Positions 22,122 through 56,594 of a stretch of DNA of 61,139 bases are shown piece by piece; position 1 is the stretch's first letter; each line of letters begins with the position of its first letter. Below the pieces are notes generated by a model that saw only the letters and a list, made by a program, of their open reading frames with translations, was not told the origin of the DNA and did no database searches. The stretch comes from a virus, in the IMG/VR virus record IMGVR_UViG_3300020141_000099, positions 1 to 61,139 of that record. One strand, written 5' to 3'. The translations under genes were made by a program, and so were the position numbers.

Positions 22122-29642
<7,521 letters not shown>

Positions 29643-39348: not shown

Positions 39349-41094
39349 TTACCTACTGATGCCGGTTTTTATAACCTTAACCTGTTTAACTGAAGCCTGA
39401 TTTGCCGTGAACAACAATCTTACTAGCCCATTTCCACTTATGTTATAATCCACGTCAAACACTCCAACTGCCCCTCCTGTAGTAATAATACCGTATTCTG
39501 ACTTATAAACGTTGCCATCGTTGTCCACTAATACGACTATTTCAACTACGTGAAATTTTGCCCCAGGTCCTACGCCATCAGCTATTTGAATTAAGTTCTT
39601 GGAAGTCCTATAACTCGAAGCAGGAAAACTGTCTATTACCGTAGTACTTGTGTTATTTATGCTGGTACTGCGTGTAAACAGCTGACCGTCTCCAAAACGG
39701 ATGCTTCCCGAGACCTGTAATTTGTCTACGCCATTGTCGATCTGTGGGCCTAATAGTAAATTTCCGCTTGATTTTACAACTGCTAGCCTGACGGTGTTGG
39801 CAGTATCGCTGTAAAGTGTTAAACCACCTTCGAATAGATTGGTGCCGCCCTGTCCTGAAAAGTTATTTCCGCCAACTTGCCATGTGTAACTCTGTCCGTT
39901 TGTGGCAGTATTACGCATTCTAAAGTAGACTCTGTCTGTTGCTATGTTACTTTCTAAAGTAATGCTTTTTCCAACAAATAAATCACCGCCAATTCCAACT
40001 CCGCCCCATACTTGGACGGCTCCAGTTTGCGTACTTGTAGCTAGAGCAGGGTTGTTAACTTTGAATGGAGCAGTAATTGTACCACCATTCCAATATAGAT
40101 TGTCTAACGGAACGCCTTCGGAGAAATATCGTTGAGCAAAAACATCGCCATTAACACCAAGTCCGCCGCCAACTTGTAGTGCTCCAGTAAAGGTACTTGT
40201 GGCAGATGTAAGGTCGTATATTTTTACTGGGCCGCCAATATTCATGTTGCCGCCAATACCTACGCCGCCGGCAACTACTAACGCACCACTATCTGTAGTT
40301 GTTGATGTTTCTGTGCTGGTTAATCTTAGTTTACTAGCCTGAAAAGTTCCAGTTGAAGAAATTTCAGTAAAGAAACCTTTTCCAGGAATTTTAACACCAA
40401 TGTCAGTTGCGTTAATTTGTTTATTTGTAATGTCCTGACTTAAGGTATCGCCTACTAATTGAAACCAGTAAACAGGATCTGTATCTAAAATTTCTTGTTC
40501 AGTAAACGTAGTATAATAATATCTACCCTTGTACAGAGTACCGTTAGATACGTAAACTATAGCACCAGATAGTTTAGCAGATGTATTAGCATCTGTTGAT
40601 CTTGTCCAAGTTCCGTTTGTGCCAATTCCTAAATTAGAAACTATATAGATACCATTTTCAACAGGATCGTCCTGCTGAGAAACTAAAACACGATCATCTT
40701 TTAATAAAGAAACTCCGTCAACTTCAATAGGAGCACCTCCTACCAAGTCAATCGTTCCGGTAGTTGCGGCTTTTACTGGACCTTTGAACGCAGTAACTGC
40801 ATTTAATTGAGGAATGCTTACAGGCCCGTTGATAGTAAATGTTCCGGTCCCGTTTGGATTGTAAACTACATCCCCATTTGGTATTAAGCTCTGTATGAAT
40901 GTTGCCGTTGTAGTTGCGCTAAAGTTAATAAATCCTAAACTAGTTGCGTAGGTAGTTTGAGAATTTACTGTAACGATTGTAAAACCAGTAGACGTACTCG
41001 GAGTATTACCCAACGCAGCCTGAGTTTGTTGTAGTGTAATAAACCCGGTCGGTGATGTAGGGTTTCTAACTGATCCGCTTAATAATATTGCCAC
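39349..41094 (-). CDS. 581-aa fibre protein sharing a C-terminal domain with the 1088-aa protein, GTG start
   Basis: The start is GTG at 41094, preceded by GGAGCATAAC and one base after the stop of the 2444-aa gene. The N-terminal 110 residues are beta-rich. A domain with TIDLVGGAPIEVDGVSLL and DRVLVSQQDDPVENGIY follows, then WTRSTDANTSAKLSGA and YYTTF, a pattern common in phage tail fibres. Three TGALxVxGG repeats and a TWQVGGNNFSGQGG segment come next. The last 95 residues match the C-terminus of the 1088-aa protein (HVVEIVVLVDNDGN, SEYGIITTGG, VGVFDVDY). It is likely a short fibre. Confidence 0.85.
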   Translation of the reverse strand: MAILLSGSVRNPTSPTGFITLQQTQAALGNTPSTSTGFTIVTVNSQTTYATSLGFINFSATTTATFIQSLIPNGDVVYNPNGTGTFTINGPVSIPQLNAVTAFKGPVKAATTGTIDLVGGAPIEVDGVSLLKDDRVLVSQQDDPVENGIYIVSNLGIGTNGTWTRSTDANTSAKLSGAIVYVSNGTLYKGRYYYTTFTEQEILDTDPVYWFQLVGDTLSQDITNKQINATDIGVKIPGKGFFTEISSTGTFQASKLRLTSTETSTTTDSGALVVAGGVGIGGNMNIGGPVKIYDLTSATSTFTGALQVGGGLGVNGDVFAQRYFSEGVPLDNLYWNGGTITAPFKVNNPALATSTQTGAVQVWGGVGIGGDLFVGKSITLESNIATDRVYFRMRNTATNGQSYTWQVGGNNFSGQGGTNLFEGGLTLYSDTANTVRLAVVKSSGNLLLGPQIDNGVDKLQVSGSIRFGDGQLFTRSTSINNTSTTVIDSFPASSYRTSKNLIQIADGVGPGAKFHVVEIVVLVDNDGNVYKSEYGIITTGGAVGVFDVDYNISGNGLVRLLFTANQASVKQVKVIKTGISR

Positions 41095-41095
41095 G

Positions 41096-44000
41096 TTATG
41101 CTCCTACCACCAAGATGAACGGTGTCATAGTTGCGTACAAACTCTTTTCAAAGGTTCGTCCAGCAAGTACACCAGTACTCTGACTAATAACTAATGTTGG
41201 TCCGATTCTAAAATCTCCGTTTTGGTCTGTTGATGTAAAGAACACCTTACCGTTATTTAATTGAACCACTTCTTTGTTCTGTTGTGGGTCAGCAGTACCT
41301 ACTTGAGGCAGAGCACCGTATTGTGTACCAGCACCTACATACTCAAATAAGTATCCAGACGCTGAAATGTAACTCTGTTGATAGAATCTTACTGTAGCAC
41401 CATCGATGAATAATGTTGGGTCTGTTACGTTTTGTTCTAGTCGAACAATGTGATACTGTCCTTTTCGATTAAAGTAACCGTTACCTGTGTTTACAGAATT
41501 ATAATTTCCACCGTATATTAAATCGTATCCTACCGCATCAATGATTGCTCCAACATCTCGATAACACTTATCTTTAGGATAATTTGGAGCGTCGGTAAAC
41601 GCAGTATCAATATACGCAATAACTTCAGCTTTGATAAAATCTCTATTTGCCAATAGTAAGTCAAATGCGTTGATAACTTGAGTACTTGTACTTGCTACTT
41701 GACTAATTGGTTGTTTTGCTGGTGCTACTCCGGGACCATTGTTAATAATATTTGTAATATTATCTATTTTATCTTGTACTAAGGAAACTTCGATACTAGT
41801 TCCAGTTGACGCAGATAATACTTGCGGAACTTTAAATTGGTAAGTGTTATCTAATGATGTTCCGGTAATAATATTACCGACTATGGTCTTAATATAGTCA
41901 TACGCGGCAGTTGTTTGAGGAATTTGATCGTCAATGGCAGTATCAGCGGCATTAAATCCGTAGTAGTATACGCCGCTGGTAATACTTTGCCTGTTGCCGC
42001 CGTGTAATAGATCAAAACTTAATGAATCGACTATGTACCCAACATCTCTATAACAAATTTCTCTATCGTAACTAAACTCTTGATTATCTAAATCTATACG
42101 AGCAATAACTTCATCTTGAATAAATGCTTTATTAGCTCTTAATATATCGTAACTTGCTAGTATATTGGTGCTAGTTGAAACTACTCCGTTTGGAACAATT
42201 AAGTCAGTTACTCCAGTAGTTCCACCTGTCAATATTGACAGAATTAAATCAACATTATTTTGTACTGTTTGAGAAATCTTAACAGTACCCGTAGATAAAT
42301 TTAACACTTGTGCTGTAGAAGTTGTAGCATCTACCGGTTCGTTGACTATGACTTTGCCTACTAATTCTTTAATATATCTTATAGCATTTGTAGTTGTTGT
42401 TAGTTGTGAAATTATTTCTCCAGTATAGGCATCTTGGTTCCAGTACTGTAATCCGGCAAACGTGCTTTCAGTTGTACCTTCGTACAACAAATCAAAAGCA
42501 ATACTATCGATAATTAAACCAGTGTCTCTCTTACATTTTGTTTTATCATATAAAAATCCAGTGTTGTAAGTGTTATTAATATAGGCAATAGTTTCTGCTC
42601 TAATAAAATCTCTATTAGCATTTAATAGTTTAACAGCGTTGACAGTAGAAGTGCTGGTGCTTGCTGTTACAGAAATTGATTCTTTAACCGTAACTTCGTC
42701 TGGACCGCGCTCAATAATATTATTAATTAAATTAACATTATTCTTAACTATTTGTGCTTCGACTGTTGTTCCAGTCTGTGTACTAATAACCTGAGTGATT
42801 AATGTTTGTTGTGGGTCCGTAATTAAAGTTCCCGTAACAATATTTTCAACAATACTTTCAATGAAATTATAAGCACTGGTAGTCTGTGGAATTTCTTTAG
42901 GTATTGCTGTGTCTTCTCCGTTATATCCGTAATAGTATACACCGCTTTGAACAGCTTGTTTGTTACCACCGTAGAGTAAATCAACGCTTACGCTGTCGAT
43001 CATATAACCTATATCTCGGAAACATTTTTCTTTGTCGTAAACAAACCCTGTAAAATTACTGTTAATATAAGAAACAATTTCGTCTTGAATAAATGTTCTA
43101 TTGGCTAACAATAAATCAAAAGCATAAGTTGAGTTAATGTCACTGCTCGCAGTTAAACTAATAGAAGTTAATGTTCCGGCAATCGCAGGTCCATTGTTGA
43201 TAATATTTGTGATTTTATCAACCTTTGCTTTGGCCTTTGTTATTGTAGTACTATTAGCAGGCAACATATAAGTTATCTGATTTGTAGTATTTCCTGCGCT
43301 AGGAATAATTTCAACTCCGCTGATAATATTACCAAGTATGTCTTTTAGTCGATTATAAGCGGCTGTAGTTTGGGGAATTTCATTTAAAATAGCTGTAGAC
43401 GTACTAATATATCCGTAATACAACACTCCGCTCTGAATACTCTGCTTATTGCCGCCGTGTAGTAGATCAAATGCCACACTGTCAATCATGTATCCTGCGT
43501 CTCTTTGGCATTTAGCAGAGTCGTAAGTAAATCCACTTGTCTTAGTAGTTTCAACATAGGCAATAACTTCAGCTATTAGATATTCTTTGTTAGAAAGTAA
43601 CAAATTATAAGCATAGTTTGTATTTGTAGAAGAACGTCTTTTTCCGTTAGGAACAATAATATCAGTGACTCCGTTAGTTCCGGTGTTTAAAATATCAATA
43701 ATAAAACCAAAGTTATTTCCAACAACAGCCGATTCGTTTGATGTTGCCACTAATGTTGAAGTAGTTTGTGTAACGGTACTTTGATATCTTGTGCCGCTCT
43801 GATTATTAACTACAACTTTTTGCGCCAATGAGCTAAGGTATATAATAGCGTTAGTAGTAGTTGTTATTTCGTTGGCAATATTTCCAACATAACTATTTTG
43901 ATTCCAATATTGGATTCCGGCAAATGTACTTTGACTATCGTTAGTTGACGGATATAATAGATCAAACGCAATACTGTCAACAATTAATCCTGTATCTCTC

Positions 44001-47000
44001 AAACACTTGGCCTGATCATATACAAAGTTAGATGTTTGATCAACATAGGCAACAACTTCATGTTGTAGATATTCCTTATTTGCCTGAAGTAAAGTATATG
44101 CCGAAATTGTTGAAGTGGACGTACTCGCAGTTATTCCGTTTGGTACAATTATGTCTGTTACGCCTTCGGTACCGTTTTCAAGAATAGTTAAGATTACATC
44201 AAAATCCTTCCCTACATTGGCAGCAACAATTGATGTGGAACTAGTTATTGTACTAGTCACTTGAGTAACAGTACTTTGATATCTATATCCAGATGTATTA
44301 TTACGAACAACTTGTTGTGCTAGAGACTTTAAGTAACTAATTGCTCTAGTTGTAGTGGTTTCTTCACCAGGAATAACACTTGCGTTTTGGTTCCAATATT
44401 GAAGGCCGGCAAATGTACTCTGGCTTGTTCCTTGGAATAATAAATCCTGTGCTAGAGAATCAACGATCAGTCCTGTATCTCGACTGCACTTAGCAGGATC
44501 GTAACTAAATTTACTTGGCCATAGATCGTCAACAAATGCTACAGTTTCTTCTTGGATAAATCTTCTATTCTTATCAAGCAACTTTTTAGCATTTAATATA
44601 TTGATGTTAGGGTCAACATATTGTCTAGGTCGAGTAATTTCTGGACTACTAGTAGATCCGTCTTTGATTATATTAGCGATAATGTCAAATTTAGATCCTA
44701 GAGATCCGACAGCATCGATTCCGCCAGTTAAAGTTGAATCAAATATCTGTGAATACGCAGTTTGATACGTTCCAAGATCGTTGGTAGAATTAATATAGGC
44801 AATTACTTCTTCTTGGATAAATGATCGATTAGCTTGTAAGGCAAGATACGCATTATAATCTTCCGGAATTAACGATTCTGTTAAAGAAACAGGAACCTTA
44901 GCGTTGGCCGCATTGGGTCCGTTGTTAATAATATCAACAATAAGATCAATGCTATCTTGTAATTTTGTTACTTCTGTTATTGTGGCAGTAGAAATATTTG
45001 TTATTTGAGGAACAAAAGTCTGATAAGTAGAAGTTGTTATTCCTTGTACTACATACGGAATTAATTGTCGGATATAATTATAGGCCGCAGTAGTTGCTGG
45101 GATCTCATTAGCTATCGCAGTTGAAGAAGAATTGTATCCGTAGTAACTAACGCCACTTTGAATAGCCTGTCTGTTACTCGACACATCTCCGTACGGATGT
45201 AGCAAATCAAACGCTACGCTGTCAATCATATACCCTACGTCTCGATAGCAAAGGCCGGCATCGTAAGTAAATCCAGAAGTTTTTGTTGTTTCAACATAGG
45301 CAATCGCTTCTTCTTGGATATATGTTTTATTACCTAATAATAAATTATAAGCCTTTGTTCTTTCTTCTGTTCCTGATATTTCACCGTTAGGAATAATTTT
45401 ATCAGTTACTCCTGCAACTCCATCAACGATGATATCTAATATTACCTCAAAATCATTTCCTACGATTGTAGCGGCTACGATCGAAGCAGGTGGCGGAGAA
45501 ATATTTTGTGTAACAGTAGATTGGTAACGAGTTCCTGAGCTAACGCTACCTGTTATATTTTGAACAATTTCTTGTGCTAACTGCTTAACATACCTAATGG
45601 CATTAGTAGTAGTGGTCAGTTCGTTGGCAATGGTGCCAATATACTGATCTTGATTCCAGTATTGAAGACCGCTAAAATTACTCTGACTTAGTTCAGTTGT
45701 TGGGTATAACAGATCTACGGCAATAGAGTCAATTATTAGTCCAGTGTCTCTCTTACATTTTGCCTGATTATATACTAATCCGGCGACCGGTTCATTTTGT
45801 ATTACTCGAAGAGCGAGATTTTTAGCATAGCTAACTGCTAAAGATGTGGTTGTTTCTTGGCCAGGAACAAGTGTCACTTGATTTGTAACAGTTGACGACA
45901 ATGACTCGTCGACTATACTTGACAATACTGTATAATATGCGTTACCACAGAAATATAAATTAAAAAACGCATCGTAATTTAAGTCTTGATACCCGGATAC
46001 TATTGGACGGTCTAAAGTTATCGATCTAAAATTGACATCAATTACCTGTGTACCAGTAGTGATATAAGGAATGCCTGTATCTGGATTTACAGAGTTTCCA
46101 AAAACATCAGTCACATAAAGTGTATGACCGACTGCGACGTCAGTTACATCGATATCATTGATAGTGTAACTGTTAGTAACAAGGGTGTTAGTGTTAATTG
46201 TGGCAATCAGGTATCCTGGATATCCTGCTGAATTAACGTAAGGAACCCTATCACCATTGTAATCAAGGTAAGTATCAGGGGCAACAACTTCCATAACTTG
46301 CCCGATGTGTGGACGATCTCTATCGTTAGGAATAAAGACTTCCATTCTTTGTTTGTTTGGCCAAAAACCTAATGGGTAGAAATCACTGTTAGGTACGTTT
46401 GTAGGATACGCAGGGTTTCTAACAAATCCTGCGAATGCCAATTTGCCTAAACCTTTTGCCGTTAAACAAGTATCACCAAAGTTTGCGTTAGAGTTAGTAA
46501 TAGAAGCAATGCCGCCGTTCTCAACAATAACAGCCTGACTACACATAATAGTAAACACAGAAACTAACTGTGCGTATCCGTTATTAATAATGTGGACTCC
46601 GATACCGCCTTGTGTAACTTGCGTGAACGCATCAAACACAAAAGATTGAATAGGTGATCGTATACTCGGAGCGTTCCCGTCAACTAATGCGCCACCCCCA
46701 GACCCTATAGGATCAAGTCTACGATCAGCATACTTGTCTCCGTCATTTACAGTCCATGCTGTGGGTATATCAGCATCTAAGAACGGATATACCGAAGTTT
46801 CTCCAAAATAGATTGTTGCGTTATCGCTAGGACTTACAGTAGGAGAACTTAATGTAATTAAGTATACATTATCTGACACGGTTGTGATCGCAGTTATTGT
46901 AGACGCATTATTAACGCCATTGGGACTTAGACCAGTTGGATATATTAATCCGTAAAGATCTTCTTTAGGATTTGGAACACTGCTTTCGCCGCTTTGGATG

Positions 47001-48430
47001 ATTGATGAAATTAAATTAAAACTTTCAATTATTCTAGTATTAACAACTTGACCGTTGTCTAAATTTAAATTGATAACCTGGAAGGTAGAAGTATCAAATA
47101 AATTAGTTACAGTATTATTGACAATAATATCTACTGATAAATCTCTAATATAATTAATTGCCGCGATTGTTTGAAATTGTTCTCCGGAAATTAAACTGGT
47201 ATTCCCGGACCAATAGGCTAGCCCTGCTTCGATACTTCTTTTGTTCCCGCCGAATCGAGCGTCACCAGCAACCGCATCAACGATATATCCTACATCGCGA
47301 TAACACTTAACTTGATTATATACTAAATCTGGAAATTGATCTTCTACGAATGCAACAGCTTGTGTTTGTAGAAATATCCTATTCTTTTCTAGTAACAACT
47401 GAGCATTTCTATATCCTTCGTTGGCAGCATCATTGACTGCCATACCTACAGAAATAGTACCTGTATATACAGAAACTACAATTTGATTTTGATCTGCTGT
47501 CCAGGTTGATGTTCCTGCGGCTAACGGAATTTGTATTGTTTGATTTGGGTTAAACATTGTCCCGTCTTTCAACCACGGACCACTTTGATTGGTACAGTTT
47601 TGAATGTACGGAGAATGATATAAATCTATAGGATTTTCTAAGTTAGGAGGAAACGCACACATGTATGCGCCAGTTGTGTATGTACCTTGACCTCCGGGAG
47701 CATATCTTTCAACACTTCCTCTACGTAGATTACGCATTTGCATTTGTGCAATGTATACACCAGAATTAACATGGAATAAATCTAAATCTTTATTCAATGG
47801 TTCAACAAAAGTAGTTCTTAAGTCATTACCAACCACCGAAGTGTATGCCTTTAGAGGTATTGGGTTATCTTCAAAATAAGTACCTGCGGCAACTCTAATT
47901 GTTGTGCCTTCGGTATACAATGGACTACGAACAGCTCCACTGATTGTTCTACATGCTCTTGTAGAATCAAGCGCAGATCCGTCATTATTATCATTTCCGT
48001 TTGGAGTAACATATAGGGTCAACGGATTAATTGGAAATGTTCCTAGAGGAATACCGCTTACAGTAAAATCCCCGGTTACCGAACCGTCGCCAGTTACTGC
48101 TAAATCTTGTTCAATGTCTACATCACCTGCTATTTGAACTTTCTGAAATGGTGTTAGTATAATATTTGAGTTAGAGTCTACACCGTTAATTTCAATTTCA
48201 GTGCCATTTTGCGTGGATCTAATAACCTGACTTGTGAAACTTAGTTTACCTAAAGTATTTGTAAAAGTAGCTTTACCACTATCGTCTGTTTGTAACGTAT
48301 AACCAGTATTAGACTCCGGAGCAACGCCGAGCGCAGGCTGAGCATTATCTACTCCTAGATAATCCCATCTATCTGGTTTTAAATTCTCTGGGCGAGGAAC
48401 CGGTTTTCTATTACTTAATAAACGTGGCAT
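41096..48430 (-). CDS. 2444-aa giant repeat protein with ten KCxRDxG repeats
   Basis: Residues 1-130 form a beta region. About 133-300 form a pectate-lyase-like beta-helix (YVTPNGNDNNDG start, FHVNSGVYIAQMQMRNL). About 350-400 hold the first repeat, followed by a central module (RSPIQSFVFDAFTQVTQGGI) and then nine more repeats of about 160 residues. Each repeat has the YDxxKCxRDxGYIVDSVxFDLL core, either YYYGY or GLQYWNQ, an IPQTTAAYNYI or TTTTNAI helix, an INNGP turn and an LLxANRxFIQxEVIAYI helix. The last 100 residues (GAGTQYGALPQVG, TDQNGDFRIGPTLVISQ) match the 2190-aa protein. I know no function; a giant virion fibre or adhesin is inferred. Confidence 0.88.
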   Translation of the reverse strand: MPRLLSNRKPVPRPENLKPDRWDYLGVDNAQPALGVAPESNTGYTLQTDDSGKATFTNTLGKLSFTSQVIRSTQNGTEIEINGVDSNSNIILTPFQKVQIAGDVDIEQDLAVTGDGSVTGDFTVSGIPLGTFPINPLTLYVTPNGNDNNDGSALDSTRACRTISGAVRSPLYTEGTTIRVAAGTYFEDNPIPLKAYTSVVGNDLRTTFVEPLNKDLDLFHVNSGVYIAQMQMRNLRRGSVERYAPGGQGTYTTGAYMCAFPPNLENPIDLYHSPYIQNCTNQSGPWLKDGTMFNPNQTIQIPLAAGTSTWTADQNQIVVSVYTGTISVGMAVNDAANEGYRNAQLLLEKNRIFLQTQAVAFVEDQFPDLVYNQVKCYRDVGYIVDAVAGDARFGGNKRSIEAGLAYWSGNTSLISGEQFQTIAAINYIRDLSVDIIVNNTVTNLFDTSTFQVINLNLDNGQVVNTRIIESFNLISSIIQSGESSVPNPKEDLYGLIYPTGLSPNGVNNASTITAITTVSDNVYLITLSSPTVSPSDNATIYFGETSVYPFLDADIPTAWTVNDGDKYADRRLDPIGSGGGALVDGNAPSIRSPIQSFVFDAFTQVTQGGIGVHIINNGYAQLVSVFTIMCSQAVIVENGGIASITNSNANFGDTCLTAKGLGKLAFAGFVRNPAYPTNVPNSDFYPLGFWPNKQRMEVFIPNDRDRPHIGQVMEVVAPDTYLDYNGDRVPYVNSAGYPGYLIATINTNTLVTNSYTINDIDVTDVAVGHTLYVTDVFGNSVNPDTGIPYITTGTQVIDVNFRSITLDRPIVSGYQDLNYDAFFNLYFCGNAYYTVLSSIVDESLSSTVTNQVTLVPGQETTTSLAVSYAKNLALRVIQNEPVAGLVYNQAKCKRDTGLIIDSIAVDLLYPTTELSQSNFSGLQYWNQDQYIGTIANELTTTTNAIRYVKQLAQEIVQNITGSVSSGTRYQSTVTQNISPPPASIVAATIVGNDFEVILDIIVDGVAGVTDKIIPNGEISGTEERTKAYNLLLGNKTYIQEEAIAYVETTKTSGFTYDAGLCYRDVGYMIDSVAFDLLHPYGDVSSNRQAIQSGVSYYGYNSSSTAIANEIPATTAAYNYIRQLIPYVVQGITTSTYQTFVPQITNISTATITEVTKLQDSIDLIVDIINNGPNAANAKVPVSLTESLIPEDYNAYLALQANRSFIQEEVIAYINSTNDLGTYQTAYSQIFDSTLTGGIDAVGSLGSKFDIIANIIKDGSTSSPEITRPRQYVDPNINILNAKKLLDKNRRFIQEETVAFVDDLWPSKFSYDPAKCSRDTGLIVDSLAQDLLFQGTSQSTFAGLQYWNQNASVIPGEETTTTRAISYLKSLAQQVVRNNTSGYRYQSTVTQVTSTITSSTSIVAANVGKDFDVILTILENGTEGVTDIIVPNGITASTSTSTISAYTLLQANKEYLQHEVVAYVDQTSNFVYDQAKCLRDTGLIVDSIAFDLLYPSTNDSQSTFAGIQYWNQNSYVGNIANEITTTTNAIIYLSSLAQKVVVNNQSGTRYQSTVTQTTSTLVATSNESAVVGNNFGFIIDILNTGTNGVTDIIVPNGKRRSSTNTNYAYNLLLSNKEYLIAEVIAYVETTKTSGFTYDSAKCQRDAGYMIDSVAFDLLHGGNKQSIQSGVLYYGYISTSTAILNEIPQTTAAYNRLKDILGNIISGVEIIPSAGNTTNQITYMLPANSTTITKAKAKVDKITNIINNGPAIAGTLTSISLTASSDINSTYAFDLLLANRTFIQDEIVSYINSNFTGFVYDKEKCFRDIGYMIDSVSVDLLYGGNKQAVQSGVYYYGYNGEDTAIPKEIPQTTSAYNFIESIVENIVTGTLITDPQQTLITQVISTQTGTTVEAQIVKNNVNLINNIIERGPDEVTVKESISVTASTSTSTVNAVKLLNANRDFIRAETIAYINNTYNTGFLYDKTKCKRDTGLIIDSIAFDLLYEGTTESTFAGLQYWNQDAYTGEIISQLTTTTNAIRYIKELVGKVIVNEPVDATTSTAQVLNLSTGTVKISQTVQNNVDLILSILTGGTTGVTDLIVPNGVVSTSTNILASYDILRANKAFIQDEVIARIDLDNQEFSYDREICYRDVGYIVDSLSFDLLHGGNRQSITSGVYYYGFNAADTAIDDQIPQTTAAYDYIKTIVGNIITGTSLDNTYQFKVPQVLSASTGTSIEVSLVQDKIDNITNIINNGPGVAPAKQPISQVASTSTQVINAFDLLLANRDFIKAEVIAYIDTAFTDAPNYPKDKCYRDVGAIIDAVGYDLIYGGNYNSVNTGNGYFNRKGQYHIVRLEQNVTDPTLFIDGATVRFYQQSYISASGYLFEYVGAGTQYGALPQVGTADPQQNKEVVQLNNGKVFFTSTDQNGDFRIGPTLVISQSTGVLAGRTFEKSLYATMTPFILVVGA
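41500..47400 (-). repeat. Ten KCxRDxG repeats (period about 160 aa) in the 2444-aa protein
   Basis: The KCxRDxG cores are at about 41565, 42035, 42520, 43015, 43500, 43995, 44475, 45235, 45750 and 47290. Neighbouring copies are 470-515 bases apart, except for two larger steps: one holds a partial unit and one holds the central module. Two subtypes alternate irregularly: YYYGY/IPQTTAAY and GLQYWNQ/TTTTNAI. Confidence 0.85.
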
Positions 48431-48451
48431 CGTTTTCTCTTATGTTTTATT

Positions 48452-48838
48452 TTAATTGTTTGCTGTTTCTAACACGCTTAATACAAGTTTACACGAGCCG
48501 GCTGCGTCTGAATAAGCTCTGATACTATCTTGACTTTCGAGAATCATCTTGCCAGTAATTAACGATGCTGAGTCATTGGGCGGAATTGGGAAGTTCATTA
48601 CCAACTCCGATGTTGTATTTGGCTCTTGTGCGTTATTACCTTGGGCGTCAGGAAGAACTCTAAATCTTCTATGATGACTGAAAGTAACAGTATGTGTAGC
48701 TTGACTATCAACGTTGGCCACCTGTGCCATCAAGATAATAGAAGTAACTCCGATTGGTGCTACATAAACAGTAGCAGTAGTATTAGTATCTAAAATCTTT
48801 GTCTTTGTCTTAAACGTGTTTAATGGAATTAATGCCAT
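48452..48838 (-). CDS. 128-aa beta-rich structural protein, paralogue of the 105-aa protein
   Basis: The protein has short beta strands: VYVAPIGVTSIILMAQVAN, then THTVTFSHHR, SELVMNFPIPPNDSASLI, and MILESQDSIRAYSDAAG with a C-terminal LVLSVLE strand. The same order (V-x-x-A/G, PxxxxxS, FILxxxDSxxA) is seen in the 105-aa protein near 56277-56594. It lies between the two giant repeat genes with an AAGGAG ribosome-binding site. It may be a small coat, fibre base or connecting protein; no family is recognised. Confidence 0.8.
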   Translation of the reverse strand: MALIPLNTFKTKTKILDTNTTATVYVAPIGVTSIILMAQVANVDSQATHTVTFSHHRRFRVLPDAQGNNAQEPNTTSELVMNFPIPPNDSASLITGKMILESQDSIRAYSDAAGSCKLVLSVLETANN

Positions 48839-48849
48839 GTATTTCTCCT

Positions 48850-51800
48850 TTATTCGCTGCCGCCCGCTTCAACAGCTAAGATGAATGGTGTCATCTGGGC
48901 AAACAAGCTCTTTTCAAATGTCCTGCCAGACAACACACCTGTTGCCTGACTAATCACTAATGTTGGACCGATACGGAAATCTCCGTTTTGGTCTGTTGAA
49001 GTAAAGAACACCTTACCATTATTTAACTGAACAACTTCTTTGGTCTGTTCGGGGTCAACTCTTCCTACTTGAGGCAAGGCACCGTATTGTGTTCCTGCTC
49101 CGCAATATTCAAACAAGTAGCCTGACGCACTTTGATAACTTCGTTGATAGAAGTTAACTGTACTACCGTCAACAAATAACAATTGATTTCTTACGTTATC
49201 TTCCAAAGTAGCGATATGGTAAGTACCTTCTCTTGTGTAATATGTCTTAGCTGCCTCGACACTCCTAAAGTTGCCCCCAGTTTGTAAATCCGCTATGAGA
49301 GCATCGATCATTAAGCCGGCATCTCTTCGACATTTTTGTTTATTGTATACAAACGTTTGAGGGAACGTTTCATTGATATAGGCAATCGTTTCTGCTTTGA
49401 TAAATTCTTTATTAGCAAGTAATAACGCAAATGCTTTTAATCTATTCGGATTAGCATTTTGTACAAGACCAACTGGTACCTTTTCGCCTGCTTCGTCTGG
49501 GCCGTTTCTAATAATATCAGTTATAATATCAACCTTTGACTGAAGTACTGCAGCTTCTGCTAAAGTGGCAGGGTTTAAATTAGTTACCTGAGGTACTGCT
49601 GTTTGGAAATTTGGAGATGTTGGAGTACCAGTTACAATATCTCCAACAATGGCTTTGATAAAATTATAGGCAGCTTCTGTTTGTGGAATTTGATTATCAA
49701 TCGCAGAGTCGGCAGGGTTAAATCCGTAGTAGTAAACTCCTGACATGATACTTTGTCTGTTACCGCCATGAAGCATATCAAAGCAAACTGAGTCTACAAT
49801 ATATCCAACATCTCGGCGACACTTAGTTTCATCGTAGCTAAAACCGCCGCCGTAAGTTGAAGTTATGTAGTTAATAACTTGTGTTTTGTAAGATTCTTTG
49901 CTTGCTTGGACGTTGGCTACTGCTGTCAATGCTGTAAAGTCAGTAGTTTTAAAACCGTTTGGAACGATATCATCTGATATTCCAACAATTCCGTTATCTA
50001 ATATGTCAAGTATGTTGTCAAAACGTTGGCCAGCAACTACACCTGGTGCGCCGCCAGCAGTTGATACTACTAACGATTTTAGATAAGCAATCGCGCCCCT
50101 AGTCTGTACGATTTGATCAATAATATCTCCAGTATAGCTGTCTTGATTCCAATATTGTAATCCAGCAAATGTACTTTGAGAAATGCTATCGTAAAGCATG
50201 TCAATAGCAATACTGTCAACAATCAACCCTGTATCTCTTGAACACTTGGCTTCATCGTAAGTAAATCCTCCGTAGATAGCATCTACATAGCTTACAGTTT
50301 CGTTCATTAGAAAGATTTTATTCTTTTTAAGCAAAGCAATAGCATCATTTTTTCCAGCAACTGCAGTTCCTGTAGTCTTAACTTGCGGTGCGGCCTGTGG
50401 TCCAGCTAGTATTACTCCTGTAATAATACCTAGACTATCACTAATAAATCCAGTTGAATTATTTCCTGACGGAAAACCATTGTCAATAGTTTGAGCTACA
50501 CTAGTGCTGTATGTAGCAGTCATTAAAATATTTGATACTACATTGTTAGATATGTCTCTTAGATAGTTAATAGCGTCAATTGTTTCGGTCTCTTGGCCTA
50601 ATATTTTACTTTGACCAGTTGGATACGGACTAGTAACTGTTTTGCTACTTAAAATGTTATAGTATGCGTTTCCACAGCAATAGATATTAAAATAATTTCC
50701 GTTGCCGTATTGGCCGCCACCTTGTAGAATAGGGTTACTCAGTGTAATTGATTGATAATTAACTTCGGTGATTGTCGTACCTGTTGTTAAGTAAGCAACT
50801 CCGTCACCGTTATCATCTGCTTCATATCCAAACTGATCTCTTATATAAACAGTCTGTCCTACTGAAACTCCCGTTACATCAATTCCATCAACTGTATAAC
50901 TGCTGGTCGTTAAACTAGATGTGTTGACAATGGCTGTTAAAAATCCCGGAAATCCTTGTTCGTTAATGTACGGAACAGTTATTCCGTCGTAGTTTACATA
51001 TTCGTCTGGAGGAACAACTTCCATCACTAAACTAATGTGTGGTCTATTGGCAGGATCTGGCACAAACACACATACCTGCTGGCTAGTAGGGAAATAGCCT
51101 TGTGGATAATATTCGTTAGCTTCAAAGCTATTTGTTAACTCGTTATAGGCAACGTTGGCCGGATTGTAAATTGTTCCTCCAAATTTACGTCTTCCATACC
51201 CTCGAGATAAAAGACATAAGTCACCAAAGTTATTATTTGAGTTGGTAATAGAAGCAATACCGCCGGCATCAGTTTCAACAGCAATGTTACAGAAAATTGT
51301 AAACACAGATACTAACTGAGCATAGCCTTCATTGATAATATGAATTCCTCTTCCACCTTGGGTAATTTGTGTAAACGCATCAAACACAAAAGATTGAATT
51401 GGACTTCTAGTAGATGGCGCAAATCCGTCGACGAGAGCACCGCCACCGGAGCCGTTAGGATCAATTCTTCTATCAGCAAATCCGTCAAGACTCCATTCGC
51501 CTGGCATATTTTTATCTTCTTCTGGGTATACTGTCGTATAACCAATATACATAATATCATTTGTTGCTGACGCAATCGTTGAAGTACTTAGATGTAGAAT
51601 GAACTGAGTTAATGTGGAATTTGTACTAGGAGGTGCGAAAGGTGGACCATTTTCTATAATAGTAGCGATAGCATCAAAATTGTTTCTTACTAAATCTCTA
51701 GCAACATAACCGCCATTCAATTGACTGTTAATAAGTTGCGGTACAACGATTGTAGCAGTAGTTGAGCTTGAACCAGGGACTGTAATTTGTTTGGATGTTT

Positions 51801-54800
51801 GGTATAAAGAAGTTACTGGATTATTAGCAATAACTTCTAATGCTAGATTTTTAAAATATAAGATAGCGCCAGCAGTTTCTTTTGTTTGTCCTTCGATTAC
51901 ACTAACCGCATTATCCCAGTAGGCATATCCTGCTTCTAAAGATTTAATATTTGATCGATTAACAATATCTTGAGCAACAGCATCCACGATTAACCCAACA
52001 TCTCTAAAACATTTTTCTTCATTGTACTTGAATACGTAAGGGTTGATAAATGTAGTATTAACAAACTCAACTACTTCGGCAACAATAAAATCTCTGTTTG
52101 CTACTAGTAGATCATATGCTCGAAGAACTGATGTTGATGTGCTAATATCTAAACCTATCGATGATAGCTCCGGAGCAGCCGATGGTCCGTATTTTATAAT
52201 TTTTCTAATTAAGTCAATGTTATCGCCAACCGCTCGAGACTCATCAGCAGTTGCTGCCAGATAGTCTGTATTTTGTAAAATATTAGGCTGATATGTTCTT
52301 GTAGCAGTTATACGTTGAACAACTTTGTCAACTAACGCTTTCATGTACTTGTAAGCCGCCATGGTCTGCGGTATTTCATTTATAAGAACTGTGCTGGTGG
52401 AGTTATATCCGTAATAAGAAACTCCTGCTTGTACGCTTTGTCTATTGCCGCCGCGTAATAAATCCATAGTAACGCTGTTTACTATGTACCCAGCATCTCT
52501 TCTACATTTTGTTTGATCGTATACAAAACCGCTTGGTTTATTTGCTTCAACATACGCCACTACCTCATCTTGAATAAATGACTTATTATTTTTTAAAGTT
52601 TGAACAGCATATAATACATCAACATCTGTAGATACAGCACCGTTTGGTACGATTGTATCAGTGACCCCTGCTGTACCAACTGTTAAAATATTCAATATTA
52701 CATCATATTTGTCAACAAGATCAGACACGACTGTGACACTAGTAGCCGTTACTGAGGTATCTTGTATAGCTGTGCTTAGTTTGCTAACAGTAAAATTTTG
52801 TACTATTTGTTCTGATATCTGTTTAGCATAATTAAAAGCATTTCTTGTAATAGTCTCTTCGCCAGGTATCTCAGTTGTGCCTTGATTCCAATATTGTAGT
52901 CCGGCAAAAGTTGATTGGCTTGATCCTCCATATACTAGATCTAACGTTAAGCCGTCTAAAATTAATCCAGTATCTCGTTCGCAATGTGATTCATTGTAAA
53001 CAAAATCTAATTTTGTAAAAGTAGTATCAACATAGGCCACTACTTCGTGTTGTAAGAATTCTTTATTAGCTACTAAAAGATCGTAGCTGTTAACAATTTC
53101 CGATATTGTGCTAGGATTAACACTATTAGAAACTAAAGATGAAGTTTGCTTTCCTTGAATTCGGCGATTGATTAATACAATATTCCTGCTAACAAGTTCA
53201 ACGGCAGCATTTGTGCCGGTAGTTAAATTGACAATCTGTGTAACTGTTGATTGATAACTGTCTAATAGTTGATTTTTTAATATTACATCTCTAACGATTG
53301 AACCTAGATAAGTTATTGCTGAAACTGTTTCGTCTATTTGGTTCGCTATTACTGCTCCGTTAGAGTAACTTGCGCCAGCGGCAGTTGATTGCTCATTGCC
53401 ACCATATAGCAAGTCAGTTGCTAAGGCATCGATTAATAGTCCAGTATCTCTAAAACATTTTGATCTATCGTAGGTAAAACTTGGAATTGATTGTCCTACG
53501 TAAGTTTCATTTACAAATGATACTACTTCCGCTTGTAAGAATCCTCTATTAGCATTTAACAATGCCGCGGCATTTTCGTAACCTGGTTGATTTTCTAGAA
53601 TGTCTACTAGTAAACTAATCGAGTTATCAATTCCGCCTACTACTACTGAGCCGCCATTAGATGCTGTATTAAATGATTGAAATGCTATCGTACCTGTAGT
53701 TTTTGTAACAGTTACATTAGATACGATATCTTTAGCAATAACTCCAATCCTATTAAACGCTGCAATAGTTGCAGTAGTTTCGTTGCCTAAAATTTGAACA
53801 TTGTTTACATAATAAGATTTACCAGCAGTAACAATACTTTCGTTGCCGCCTAAAATAACATCATTAACAAGAGCATCTACAACATAACCAACGTCTCTTC
53901 TACATTTTACTCTGTCATAAACAAGATCTGAATAAAAGAAATCTACATATGAAACAACTTCGTCTTGTATAAAAGATTTATTATCTACTAATAATCCTTT
54001 AGCAGTTTGAAAATTTGGATCAGGATTTTCAATAGCGTCAATAGTGGCGACTAGTATATCTGGATCAATTAAAATACCTTTTCCGTTAATAGACATTCCT
54101 ATCTCGGGCATCTGACCTGAAATTTCAGGGAGTATGTTTACAGTTATAACCGTGGTGTTGATTACGTATGTGGATGTAGCAACTACTAATGGAACTTGAA
54201 CTGTTTGATTTGGCACAAACATTGTTCCATCAAACAGCCACGGACCTGATTGATTAGTACAGTTTTGAATATAGGGACTGTGAAATACGTCAATTGGATT
54301 ATCTAGCTTAGGTGGAAAGGCAACACAATACGCACCGGTTGTGTATGTGCCAGCACCGCCCGGCACGTAGCGAGTAACTTCTCCTCGACGAAGGTCTCGC
54401 ATGGTCATCCCAGTAATATAAACACCGCTGTTTACATGGAACAAATCAACTGCGTTGTTTAATGGAAATACAAAAACTCCCCTTAAGCTGTCTCCATATA
54501 CAGATGTGTAAGGCAACAATTCAATAGGATTGTCTTCGTAATATTTTCCAGGAGCAACTTTAATAACAGTACCTTGTTTGTAATAAGGACTTTTAGTTGC
54601 TCCACTAATCGTACGGCAAGCACGGCTTGAGTCCATGGCTCTACCATCATTTTCGTCACTACCGTTTTCGTTTACGTATAGTATATTATTAACAACAGGG
54701 GCAGTTCCAATTGGATTTCCGCCGTAGACTCGAATGTCTCCGTTAATTTGTACGCTCTTGTTTAGGGTTCTTTCTAGTAGAGGTATATCTGGAAAGAATT

Positions 54801-55422
54801 GAACGTTAGTATATGTACCAACAGTATCTACTTGCTTAGTAAAAATATTTTCTAAGTAAGCACTCTTCCAGTAAGAAGTAGTATTACCGATACTGTAATC
54901 AGAAATAATATTAGTATTGGTAATAAATTCTGTTACTGTAAATCCGTTAGTAACTGTGGTAACAAATGTCCCGGAACTTAGATAGGGTAATAGATCAGTA
55001 TCAATCTCTCCAAGTAGACTAATCGTGTCGCTTGATGTAGTATCGCCTAATTTAATATTTCCTTGGGCAAAGAAATTTCCTGTAGCAAATACATCACCGT
55101 CAACTCGTAGGTCAGAGTTGATAAATGTATCATCTGTACCGCCTGGTGTAATATTAAATGGACCGTAGATGGTCGAAACTGTGCTACTAGATGTTGAGCT
55201 TTCTATGGTTATTAAACCGATAGTAGCGGTATTAAGGATTATTTTGGCAGCTCTAATTGTGCCTGTGTTAACATCTAACTCGTATGCCGGAGCAGATTGT
55301 CTAATACCAATTCGGCCGTTTACAACGTCAACATATAGCAAATCATCGTCAATTGCTATGTCTATGCCGTCTCGTCGCAAGTTGCTTGCGAGTAACGGAC
55401 CAGTAATGCGACCAATGGCCAT
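48850..55422 (-). CDS. 2190-aa giant repeat protein with eight KCxRDxG repeats
   Basis: It has the same plan as the 2444-aa protein: an N-terminal region, a pectate-lyase-like beta-helix (YVNENGSDENDG start), five KCxRDxG repeats, a central module (RSPIQSFVFDAFTQITQGGR), three more repeats, and the same C-terminal domain (GAGTQYGALPQVG, TDQNGDFRIGPTLVISQ). The central module is placed after repeat five here but after repeat one in the 2444-aa protein. The ATG has an AAGGAGC ribosome-binding site. Upstream is a leader of about 85 bases with an AATAAATA octamer and a TGCCAAA/TTTGGCA hairpin. Confidence 0.88.
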   Translation of the reverse strand: MAIGRITGPLLASNLRRDGIDIAIDDDLLYVDVVNGRIGIRQSAPAYELDVNTGTIRAAKIILNTATIGLITIESSTSSSTVSTIYGPFNITPGGTDDTFINSDLRVDGDVFATGNFFAQGNIKLGDTTSSDTISLLGEIDTDLLPYLSSGTFVTTVTNGFTVTEFITNTNIISDYSIGNTTSYWKSAYLENIFTKQVDTVGTYTNVQFFPDIPLLERTLNKSVQINGDIRVYGGNPIGTAPVVNNILYVNENGSDENDGRAMDSSRACRTISGATKSPYYKQGTVIKVAPGKYYEDNPIELLPYTSVYGDSLRGVFVFPLNNAVDLFHVNSGVYITGMTMRDLRRGEVTRYVPGGAGTYTTGAYCVAFPPKLDNPIDVFHSPYIQNCTNQSGPWLFDGTMFVPNQTVQVPLVVATSTYVINTTVITVNILPEISGQMPEIGMSINGKGILIDPDILVATIDAIENPDPNFQTAKGLLVDNKSFIQDEVVSYVDFFYSDLVYDRVKCRRDVGYVVDALVNDVILGGNESIVTAGKSYYVNNVQILGNETTATIAAFNRIGVIAKDIVSNVTVTKTTGTIAFQSFNTASNGGSVVVGGIDNSISLLVDILENQPGYENAAALLNANRGFLQAEVVSFVNETYVGQSIPSFTYDRSKCFRDTGLLIDALATDLLYGGNEQSTAAGASYSNGAVIANQIDETVSAITYLGSIVRDVILKNQLLDSYQSTVTQIVNLTTGTNAAVELVSRNIVLINRRIQGKQTSSLVSNSVNPSTISEIVNSYDLLVANKEFLQHEVVAYVDTTFTKLDFVYNESHCERDTGLILDGLTLDLVYGGSSQSTFAGLQYWNQGTTEIPGEETITRNAFNYAKQISEQIVQNFTVSKLSTAIQDTSVTATSVTVVSDLVDKYDVILNILTVGTAGVTDTIVPNGAVSTDVDVLYAVQTLKNNKSFIQDEVVAYVEANKPSGFVYDQTKCRRDAGYIVNSVTMDLLRGGNRQSVQAGVSYYGYNSTSTVLINEIPQTMAAYKYMKALVDKVVQRITATRTYQPNILQNTDYLAATADESRAVGDNIDLIRKIIKYGPSAAPELSSIGLDISTSTSVLRAYDLLVANRDFIVAEVVEFVNTTFINPYVFKYNEEKCFRDVGLIVDAVAQDIVNRSNIKSLEAGYAYWDNAVSVIEGQTKETAGAILYFKNLALEVIANNPVTSLYQTSKQITVPGSSSTTATIVVPQLINSQLNGGYVARDLVRNNFDAIATIIENGPPFAPPSTNSTLTQFILHLSTSTIASATNDIMYIGYTTVYPEEDKNMPGEWSLDGFADRRIDPNGSGGGALVDGFAPSTRSPIQSFVFDAFTQITQGGRGIHIINEGYAQLVSVFTIFCNIAVETDAGGIASITNSNNNFGDLCLLSRGYGRRKFGGTIYNPANVAYNELTNSFEANEYYPQGYFPTSQQVCVFVPDPANRPHISLVMEVVPPDEYVNYDGITVPYINEQGFPGFLTAIVNTSSLTTSSYTVDGIDVTGVSVGQTVYIRDQFGYEADDNGDGVAYLTTGTTITEVNYQSITLSNPILQGGGQYGNGNYFNIYCCGNAYYNILSSKTVTSPYPTGQSKILGQETETIDAINYLRDISNNVVSNILMTATYSTSVAQTIDNGFPSGNNSTGFISDSLGIITGVILAGPQAAPQVKTTGTAVAGKNDAIALLKKNKIFLMNETVSYVDAIYGGFTYDEAKCSRDTGLIVDSIAIDMLYDSISQSTFAGLQYWNQDSYTGDIIDQIVQTRGAIAYLKSLVVSTAGGAPGVVAGQRFDNILDILDNGIVGISDDIVPNGFKTTDFTALTAVANVQASKESYKTQVINYITSTYGGGFSYDETKCRRDVGYIVDSVCFDMLHGGNRQSIMSGVYYYGFNPADSAIDNQIPQTEAAYNFIKAIVGDIVTGTPTSPNFQTAVPQVTNLNPATLAEAAVLQSKVDIITDIIRNGPDEAGEKVPVGLVQNANPNRLKAFALLLANKEFIKAETIAYINETFPQTFVYNKQKCRRDAGLMIDALIADLQTGGNFRSVEAAKTYYTREGTYHIATLEDNVRNQLLFVDGSTVNFYQRSYQSASGYLFEYCGAGTQYGALPQVGRVDPEQTKEVVQLNNGKVFFTSTDQNGDFRIGPTLVISQATGVLSGRTFEKSLFAQMTPFILAVEAGGSE
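49250..53950 (-). repeat. Eight KCxRDxG repeats in the 2190-aa protein
   Basis: The cores are at about 49310, 49805, 50230, 51990, 52490, 52970, 53450 and 53890. Most are 425-500 bases apart; the 1.76-kb step holds the central module. Copies near 49805, 50230 and 52490 are closest to those of the 2444-aa protein. Confidence 0.85.
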
Positions 55423-56276: not shown

Positions 56277-56594
56277 TTAACCTACTAGAACATAGCTACA
56301 TGTGCAGGTAATAATTGTATTTTGACTTGCCTGAGCTTGCACGCTGTCACCGTCTTGTAAAATAAATCTTTCTGTGTCCATGCTAAAAGTTTCTCCGGCC
56401 GGAACAGAAATTTGATTTAAAATTATATTTGCGTCACCTGCGGCAATAGCAGACGGTACCATCCATACGCTCACTGTTGCGTCAACAGTTAAACTTGAAT
56501 TACAAAATATTAAGCAGGTAACAGCGTTTTCTCCGTTGGCTACAAAGACTTCTGTTTTTTGTGATGCGCTTAATTGCGAGTTAGTGATTGCCAT
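56277..56594 (-). CDS. 105-aa beta-rich structural protein, paralogue of the 128-aa protein
   Basis: The strands are TEVFVANGENAVTCLIFCN, DATVSVWMVPSA, NIILNQISVPAGETFSM, FILQDGDSVQAQASQ and a CTCSYVLVG end. The pattern parallels the 128-aa protein, whose central FPIPPNDS and SQDSIRAYSD lie at equal spacing. It has an AAGGAAT ribosome-binding site. Function is unknown. Confidence 0.8.
   Translation of the reverse strand: MAITNSQLSASQKTEVFVANGENAVTCLIFCNSSLTVDATVSVWMVPSAIAAGDANIILNQISVPAGETFSMDTERFILQDGDSVQAQASQNTIITCTCSYVLVG

Follow-up and report, generated by a model that had tools for sequence, protein, structure and literature searches.

Within the 61 kb virus record IMGVR_UViG_3300020141_000099 of IMG/VR (61,139 nucleotides, all of which were analysed and are referred to here as the window), which carries T4-like tail and head genes, two genes encode giant proteins, A (2444 residues) and B (2190 residues), that contain many copies of a unit of about 163 residues with the motif CxRDxG. 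Judged from structure models and profile comparisons, this unit very probably has the phycobiliprotein fold, i.e. that of a bilin-binding globin, lacks the N-terminal helices of that fold, and is remotely homologous to the phycobiliproteins. The explanation favoured here, with a confidence somewhat better than even, is that A and B are giant tail proteins with arrays of phycobiliprotein-fold units, which would space a fibre and in which CxRD would be a working bilin pocket.

Both open reading frames are present, at exactly positions 41096-48430 and 48850-55422 of the minus strand. An earlier note on this DNA had counted 10 and 8 copies of a repeat, and A does contain ten C.RD.G motifs and B eight; shuffling each protein 2000 times gave on average 0.0025 (A) and 0.004 (B), and never more than 1. 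The motifs are regularly spaced, at 141-169 residues, the exceptions being gaps of 516, 254 and 589 residues that are the sites of half of a beta-helix-like domain or of a Cys-less piece. The total of 18 is thus right as a number, but the last copy of A and of B is a first half-unit only, running into a C-terminal domain that the two proteins share. Counted with the repeat profile, A has 8 full and 5 partial units and B has 6 full and 3 partial ones, with Cys-less unit pieces at A 851-882, 1193-1217 and 1221-1259 and at B 1603-1676. Two kinds of unit, marked by GLQYWNQ and YYYGY, alternate irregularly.

Relatives were drawn from a scan of IMG/VR, in which the best 80 of 135 stretches were taken and 72 loci kept; loci L073-L080 are the window itself and were excluded from the family counts, and a near-identical contig, L006, was retained. 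This gave 94 repeat-bearing open reading frames (from the kept loci plus the window, with the window's own loci removed), of which one has as many as 20 profile matches. Unit alignments A1, A2 and A3 have 92, 127 and 150 rows, respectively, after near-duplicates were removed by a k-mer cut, and A3 consists of single units, 150 of 578 full ones; alignments that mixed repeats with short C-terminal segments misplaced repeat halves over the C-terminal domain, and the version without such segments was used. The idea of a recombining, fast-changing array was rejected, as same-position units of related proteins are mutual best matches: 9 of 9 for locus L001, 9 of 9 in order with a gap for L017, and 8 of 8, one nearly tied, for B against L007. 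For L009, 8 of 9 units were best matched in shifted order, with one nearly tied and the last out of order. Such comparisons took only matches covering profile positions 20-75, and because units in the same position match each other best, the units appear to be old and individually conserved.

Two AlphaFold2 models bear on the fold, model 1 covering four units and the C-terminus and model 2 the beta-helix-like domain with one inserted unit. Both show the unit as all-helical, with six helices in the inserted one. Scores in the predicted local distance difference test (pLDDT) are mostly 85-98 for the middle pair of units in model 1 and fall off in the outer pair; for the inserted unit of model 2, they are 80-96. 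The expectation of a folded, all-helical repeat of about 160 residues is thereby borne out. Its proposed form, an alpha-solenoid or helical rod, is suggested by tandem all-helical units of near-constant length, but it is scarcely credible given that the unit is predicted to be a closed, compact globin domain even when it stands singly inside the beta-helix-like domain of model 2, which is not how units stacking into one continuous superhelix would behave.

When model 1 was compared with known structures by VIA-align, ranks 1-27 were all of phycobiliprotein type, with Z 14.1-16.5, and the next, unrelated row followed at Z 7.0. For model 2, all of the best 50 rows were phycobiliproteins or phycobilisome chains (Z 14.5-16.2; root-mean-square deviation 1.9-5.9 Å), the matches lying mostly on residues 211-354 of the model (A 336-479) and the tighter alignments giving 1.9-2.3 Å over 117-133 residues. 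The predicted models thus match the phycobiliprotein globin fold at Z 14-16.5, with tighter alignments at about 2 Å over about 130 residues. Among the phycobiliprotein-type rows of both lists is 8u0f, titled 'bacterial fluorescent protein', which we take to be an engineered phycobiliprotein. Foldseek gave model 2 a probability of 1.00, with phycobiliprotein-type structures in 49 of the best 50 rows; for model 1, phycobiliproteins appeared at E 0.8 or worse, ranked by E under long low-probability alignments, and it is Foldseek probability, and then VIA-align, that sets them apart, not Foldseek E. The tight structural matches begin at residue 24-35 of the phycobiliprotein chain, leaving its first 23-34 residues unmatched, and only loose matches (2.8-5.9 Å) reach chain residues 5-21, through strand residues of the model; therefore, the phycobiliprotein N-terminal helices appear to be lacking in the unit.

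At the sequence level, a Pfam scan of whole A and B gave only two sub-threshold domains of unknown function, and phmmer with the whole proteins against the PDB gave one chance match, so the lead to phycobiliproteins comes from profile searches of the repeats and not from whole-protein searches. Against 177,635 PDB sequences, the profile of alignment A2 found nine at E≤1, all of them phycocyanin or phycoerythrocyanin, and that of A3 found two at E≤10, both phycocyanin alpha (E 0.02), with the repeat KCxRD on KC-x-RD; such E-values alone are no proof. Eighty cyanobacterial loci fetched with a phycocyanin fragment were the source of the phycobiliprotein alignments, and when the repeat profile was run on 719 cyanobacterial open reading frames (169 of them phycobiliproteins, many near-identical), places 1-91 all went to phycobiliproteins. 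On 24 whole cyanobacterial genomes, it gave six matches at E≤1 (best 0.02), five to phycobiliproteins and the sixth to an unrelated 637-residue frame. Profile-profile comparison with hhalign gave 91.9 % against phycocyanin alpha (score 44, 56 columns; forced to 112 columns, there was little confidence outside the core) and 84.8 % against alpha and beta combined (score 39.4, compared with at most 23.5 for 100 column shuffles of that alignment), whereas 13 decoy families reached at most 0.46 %. Among 24,736 Pfam families run against the 150 single units, PF00502 (Phycobilisome) matched 31 at E≤10 (best 1.9e-5), and no other family matched more than two. In the reverse direction, 38 of 55 phycobiliproteins matched phrog_701 at E≤10 among 38,880 families (best 0.0042; next family, 8), and A and B themselves match phrog_701 with E below 1e-48.

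That this resemblance is convergence, with an unrelated six-helix bundle looking like a globin and CxRDxG present by chance, is very improbable. It would fit the weakness of single E-values (0.02 against the PDB), the 9-18 % identity to phycobiliproteins in the structural alignments, and the caution attached to VIA-align, for which a Z of less than about 13 may carry little meaning with helical bundles, mostly helical models without a clear match reaching a best Z of about 14. Yet rank 50 in such cases has Z of about 6, up to 13, and model 2 still has Z 14.5 at that rank; in model 1, the next unrelated row lies about 7 Z units below the phycobiliproteins; and structure, profile-profile, Pfam and reverse PHROG scans agree on one family, in register at the motif.

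Some of the results nonetheless weigh against the assignment. The predicted template modelling score is only 0.52 for model 1 and 0.38 for model 2, so the arrangement of the domains is not established, and the model 1 alignments span residues 1 to 635, such that helices of different units may be swapped. Foldseek against the PDB gave no match at E≤0.001 for either model. The profile of alignment A1 gave three PDB matches, two cytolysins (E 0.024) that stand level with phycocyanin (E 0.028); hhalign against phycobiliprotein beta chains alone gave only 5.4 %; chance Pfam matches of single units go down to E 2.2e-4; and PF00502 at E≤0.001 matches nothing in the window.

The curated PF00502 model does not recognize the unit, and neither the N-terminal helices nor D13 and R93, which are invariant in the 55 phycobiliproteins of alignment A4, are kept, the position of Arg93 being taken by Asp in 471 of the 594 units and by Arg in 5. 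For these reasons, the unit is kept out of PF00502; models and profiles predict that it belongs to the superfamily of bilin-binding globins as a remote branch found in viruses, outside that family. The statement that the repeat is no named domain therefore holds insofar as no Pfam model lies above cut-off on the whole proteins, and gives way insofar as a named family is matched by fold and remote homology, although not at the curated threshold.

The motif itself is where the comparison becomes functional. According to PMC10151467, CXRD binds bilin in phycobiliproteins, Cys covalently and the other two residues by hydrogen bonds, and it is on this attachment motif of phycocyanin that the KCxRD of the repeat aligns, both by profile and by hhalign. 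In the unit, CxRD likewise stands at the start of the third helix and is followed by a similar pattern (in phycocyanin alpha, K-C-x-R-D-[IV]-G...G-G). As had been claimed, Cys, Arg and Asp are kept in nearly all copies: of the 594 distinct units of the wider family that cover the motif, 571 have Cys-x-Arg-Asp intact (this aligned count is preferred to one of 558 in 578 made over a fixed search stretch), with Cys at 97.1 %, Arg at 97.8 % and Asp at 99.2 %. Moreover, Arg or Asp is lost in 7 of 17 Cys-less units vs 6 of 577 Cys-bearing ones (p=6e-9, a value weakened by the relatedness of the sequences), and 12 other conserved columns give p≥0.02 against Cys loss, two of them hardly varying and hence being uninformative.

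From this, it is proposed that the CxRD pocket would bind a host-made linear tetrapyrrole (biliverdin or phycobilin) covalently via Cys, with Arg and Asp as hydrogen-bond partners of the tetrapyrrole, as in phycobiliproteins and lyase-independent bilin-binding globins, and that each unit would hold a linear tetrapyrrole, or may once have done so. Bilin binding at the CxRD site, argued by analogy, is quite possible, its chance being put a little short of even, and in this respect the unit may work like the light-harvesting phycobiliproteins without belonging to their family.

Telling against a pigment are the 10 of 17 Cys-less units that still keep Arg and Asp, and a full triad in only 23 of the 33 readable units of five cyanophages (33 of 36 units in six cyanophages being readable), in which Cys is kept in 32, Asp in 33 and Arg in 24. 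The sixth, P-SSM4, has two units that are not fully readable, one with Leu replacing Cys. In addition, jumbo phages of heterotrophs have the closest relatives of the window's capsid (70.7 % to Sinorhizobium phage Phosso) and of its terminase (54.4 % to PA5oct-like phages), and with such a heterotroph-type core, a cyanobacterial host is not indicated. Among the 42 related viral records over 40 kb (of the 72 loci), which may be fragments, the psbA/D, bilin-reductase and CpeT families were found in none; this includes the ferredoxin-dependent bilin reductase family PF05996, haem oxygenase lying outside this search. As a consequence, any bilin present would be host-made, and this is possible by analogy, for lyase-independent bilin-binding globins exist in non-photosynthetic bacteria (PMC10151467). 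Finally, P-SSM2 carries bilin reductase genes, according to PMC2984593, and has no unit, so phage bilin genes and units are not simply linked.

These same observations, i.e. the absent bilin-reductase and CpeT families, the heterotroph-type core, P-SSM2 and the Arg replaced in 9 of the 33 readable cyanophage units, would suit a chromophore-free unit of the same fold and ancestry, in which a globin has been co-opted as a stackable spacer or adhesin and Cys, Arg and Asp serve packing or folding. So would the fact that the most conserved residues lie outside the triad, namely Asp at +14 from the Cys (594 of 594) and Tyr at +30 (99.8 %), for which no phycobiliprotein counterpart was seen in the alignments. 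This is a serious contender, with a chance rated clearly below even. Nevertheless, packing alone is a poor explanation of a Cys kept at 97 % and lost along with Arg and Asp, unlike the 12 other columns, and since R93 is not retained, the chromophore triad is what stays within that helix. A third possibility, that the triad serves another ligand or chemistry (haem, a metal, a redox thiol, or disulphides linking adjacent units or chains), is unlikely. It would account for the single conserved Cys that a unit carries within its globin-type fold and for the absence of bilin-reductase and CpeT families from the related records, and disulphides between copies were the proposal of the earlier note itself; however, the bilin site has this motif, with this spacing and at this point of the fold, and by sequence and model a putative correspondence to the Cys that attaches bilin explains the residue better than a disulphide between repeats does.

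The layout of A and B, with which the likely role of the units is bound up, is as follows (protein residues, then positions in the window).
Giant protein A, 2444 residues, positions 41096..48430, minus strand; open reading frame matching PHROG tail fiber, short tail fiber and virion structural families
A 131-308, positions 47507..48040, minus strand; first half of a split beta-helix-like domain, by homology among A, B and relatives, mostly strands in model 2
A 342-483, positions 46982..47407, minus strand; single unit between the beta-helix halves, by profile, matching phycobiliproteins in model 2
A 541-860, positions 45851..46810, minus strand; second beta-helix-like half, by homology among A, B and relatives and by model 2
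A 884-2334, positions 41429..45781, minus strand; downstream array of seven full units, one near-full unit, small pieces and a final half unit, by profile and model 1
A 2335-2444, positions 41099..41428, minus strand; C-terminal domain with the FTSTDQNGDFRIG motif
Small protein between A and B, 128 residues, positions 48452..48838, minus strand; matches phrog_1276
Giant protein B, 2190 residues, positions 48850..55422, minus strand; open reading frame with PHROG matches
B 240-417, positions 54172..54705, minus strand; first half of the beta-helix-like domain, by homology among A, B and relatives
B 474-1260, positions 51643..54003, minus strand; five units between the beta-helix halves, by profile
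B 1292-1612, positions 50587..51549, minus strand; second beta-helix-like half, by homology among A, B and relatives
B 1694-2071, positions 49210..50343, minus strand; downstream array of three units, by profile
B 2072-2190, positions 48853..49209, minus strand; C-terminal domain, by motif

In the downstream array of B, which is preceded by the Cys-less half unit at 1603-1676, unit 1 is incomplete (profile positions 2-97 of 147), unit 2 is full and unit 3 is a half. The two-piece domain is conserved among A, B and their relatives and is predicted from model 2 to be mostly beta strands and beta-helix-like. In all 83 proteins that have both pieces (three copies of the window being left out of this set), between 1 and 12 units lie between them, and in all 83 the length of the insert predicts the number of units. 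Inserts range from 233 to 2029 residues with a best period of 163 residues (R 0.88 for all, 0.77 for the 25 distinct lengths), a fit that none of 2000 random sets reached in either version, the same grid being used for data and null. It follows from this periodicity and predictability that units are gained or lost whole at one site of the beta-helix-like domain. Further units lie beyond the second piece in 74 of the 83 proteins, and the remaining nine end no more than 25 residues past it. The FTSTDQNGDFRIG motif of the C-terminal domain occurs in 64 of the 94 repeat-bearing open reading frames (62 viral and 2 in the window), and 28 of the 30 without it stop at the end of the locus. This domain is poorly modelled, with pLDDT mostly below 50 in model 1, in which it had few alignment rows. 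From its sequence, it may be an attachment or folding module common to several tail proteins. A 41-residue stretch (positions 33883-34005) of the baseplate wedge protein (30403-35979) resembles B 2125-2165, with 41 % identity and E 1.3e-5. Two repeat-bearing giants per locus, with differing insert lengths, are also seen in L034, L027, L026, L017 and L024.

That A and B are giant tail-fibre or baseplate proteins of a T4-like phage, located in the tail, is highly likely. They match PHROGs 5342, 4527, 17885 (tail) and 701, and the window contains genes for the terminase, tail tubes, sheath, baseplate wedge, tail fibre and capsid; a tail module also surrounds the cyanophage relative S-PM2d088, which is located between gp8 and the neck gene gp13. 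PHROGs already include A and B as tail or virion structural proteins. The arrays would most likely serve to extend and space a fibre of the baseplate region that contacts the receptor, and the units may offer binding surfaces during adsorption. Both repeat-bearing giants of S-PM2d, 088 and 218, were hit by early mutations in host-phage chemostats (#9 and #11 in 088, #54 in 218). The majority of the early mutations in this group had reached 100 % and were shared by all three chemostats; mutations also arose there in other large or structural proteins (PMC9910659). When S-PM2 was compared with S-PM2d, the derivative obtained from it by passage, in order to place the selected mutations, no difference was found.

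Around the two genes, several other features stand out. Two small proteins flanking B, at 48452-48838 and 56277-56594, match phrog_1276 (E 1e-11 and 7e-4) and could be paralogues that act as partners or chaperones for the giant fibres. Downstream of A, the protein at 39349-41094 has a weak match to the T4 gp9/gp10 C-terminal region (E 0.0035, below cut-off) and PHROG matches to head-decoration and tail-fibre families. Another giant tail-fibre protein, of 2506 residues, is encoded at 22122-29642 and has 33 PHROG matches, including collagen-like and tail-fibre families. The window is of mixed ancestry: its capsid and terminase are of jumbo-phage type, and in the phage collection, the relatives of its tail giants come from cyanophages.

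The distribution of the unit among named phages makes the last point concrete. A repeat-only tblastn, a search by which distant cases are missed, matched 296 records in a set of 50,697 from phages, and every one of the 296 bears the name Synechococcus, Cyanophage or Prochlorococcus; among 40 of these records whose labels were examined, 22 are given as tail, baseplate or structural and 18 as hypothetical, and none names the domain. By profile, the unit was found in S-PM2, Sf-FR1, P-HM1, P-HM2, P-SSM4, Syn9 and S-RSM4, and it was not found in P-SSM2, HTVC008M, T4, PA5oct, Phosso, Vibrio 2.275, GAP32, CBB, P-SSP7 or S-TIM5. The cyanophage giants S-PM2p091/S-PM2d088 and S-PM2d218 thus have the unit in common with A and B; those of S-PM2 and Sf-FR1 give 3 to 5 profile matches per protein, and the cyanophage units are more divergent. 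Such proteins are annotated as hypothetical, structural or tail fiber, and the domain goes unnamed. A literature search by title and the start of the abstract, mostly without subscription papers and bioRxiv, found no phycobiliprotein-like domain in a phage tail.

Adsorption of S-PM2 is reportedly light-dependent. Several marine cyanomyoviruses adsorb in a light-dependent manner (PMC2984593), and P-HM2, which has units, did not adsorb in the dark, whereas P-SSP7, which has none, infected in the dark (dark data from PMC7112961); this pair is no test, because P-SSP7 belongs to another phage type. The thought that arises is that tail units might be virion-borne photoreceptors that carry covalently bound host bilins, perhaps with the help, in some cyanophages, of phage enzymes such as CpeT, with light switching or powering the deployment of the fibre. 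CpeT is matched by 66 phage records, 65 of which are cyanophages by name, and in S-PM2d (L084:17409-30724), three annotated protein genes (250, 216 and 217) and several tRNAs separate cpeT (S-PM2d215) from the repeat-bearing giant S-PM2d218 downstream of it. The photoreceptor reading is an improbable one, rated lower because P-SSM2 has bilin reductases and no unit, and the light/dark adsorption pair, the cpeT neighbourhood and the CpeT matches are leads for it rather than evidence.

Set beside known systems, the unit shares with the phycobiliproteins (phycocyanin and phycoerythrin; PF00502) a length of about 160 residues, a predicted globin-type fold over most of the chain and mutual remote sequence similarity; it differs from them in lacking a match to their first 23-34 residues and in not keeping R93, and whereas phycobiliproteins are antenna subunits, the units stand in tandem within giant tail proteins. 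The bilin biosynthesis-associated globins (BBAGs), to which the units are likened by description, form part of a bilin-binding globin clade that includes the phycobiliproteins, and BBAG-1 and BBAG-3 carry CXRD, bind bilins without lyases and occur outside cyanobacteria (PMC10151467, PNAS 2023). Unlike the units, which are viral and tandem, BBAGs are bacterial proteins encoded beside bilin-synthesis genes, a setting not seen for the units, as no ferredoxin-dependent bilin reductase occurs in the 42 records searched. For the remainder of the fibre, the tail fibre of Agrobacterium phage 7-7-1 (9rkv) is a partial match to model 2, with Foldseek probability 1.00 over 102 columns, presumably to its beta-helix-like part.

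Taken as predicted, giant tail proteins of phages are built mainly from a domain of light-harvesting type, and phage tails may carry, or may once have carried, a light-absorbing molecule. The finding adds a viral branch to the bilin-binding globins, whose non-cyanobacterial origin is under study. Were the units to bind bilin, virions could carry a photoreceptor; this would offer a concrete candidate for how some cyanophage adsorption depends on light, as well as a possible use for some phage bilin genes. Even without pigment, the globin fold would here be put to a new use, that of a stackable module whose copy number varies by whole domains.

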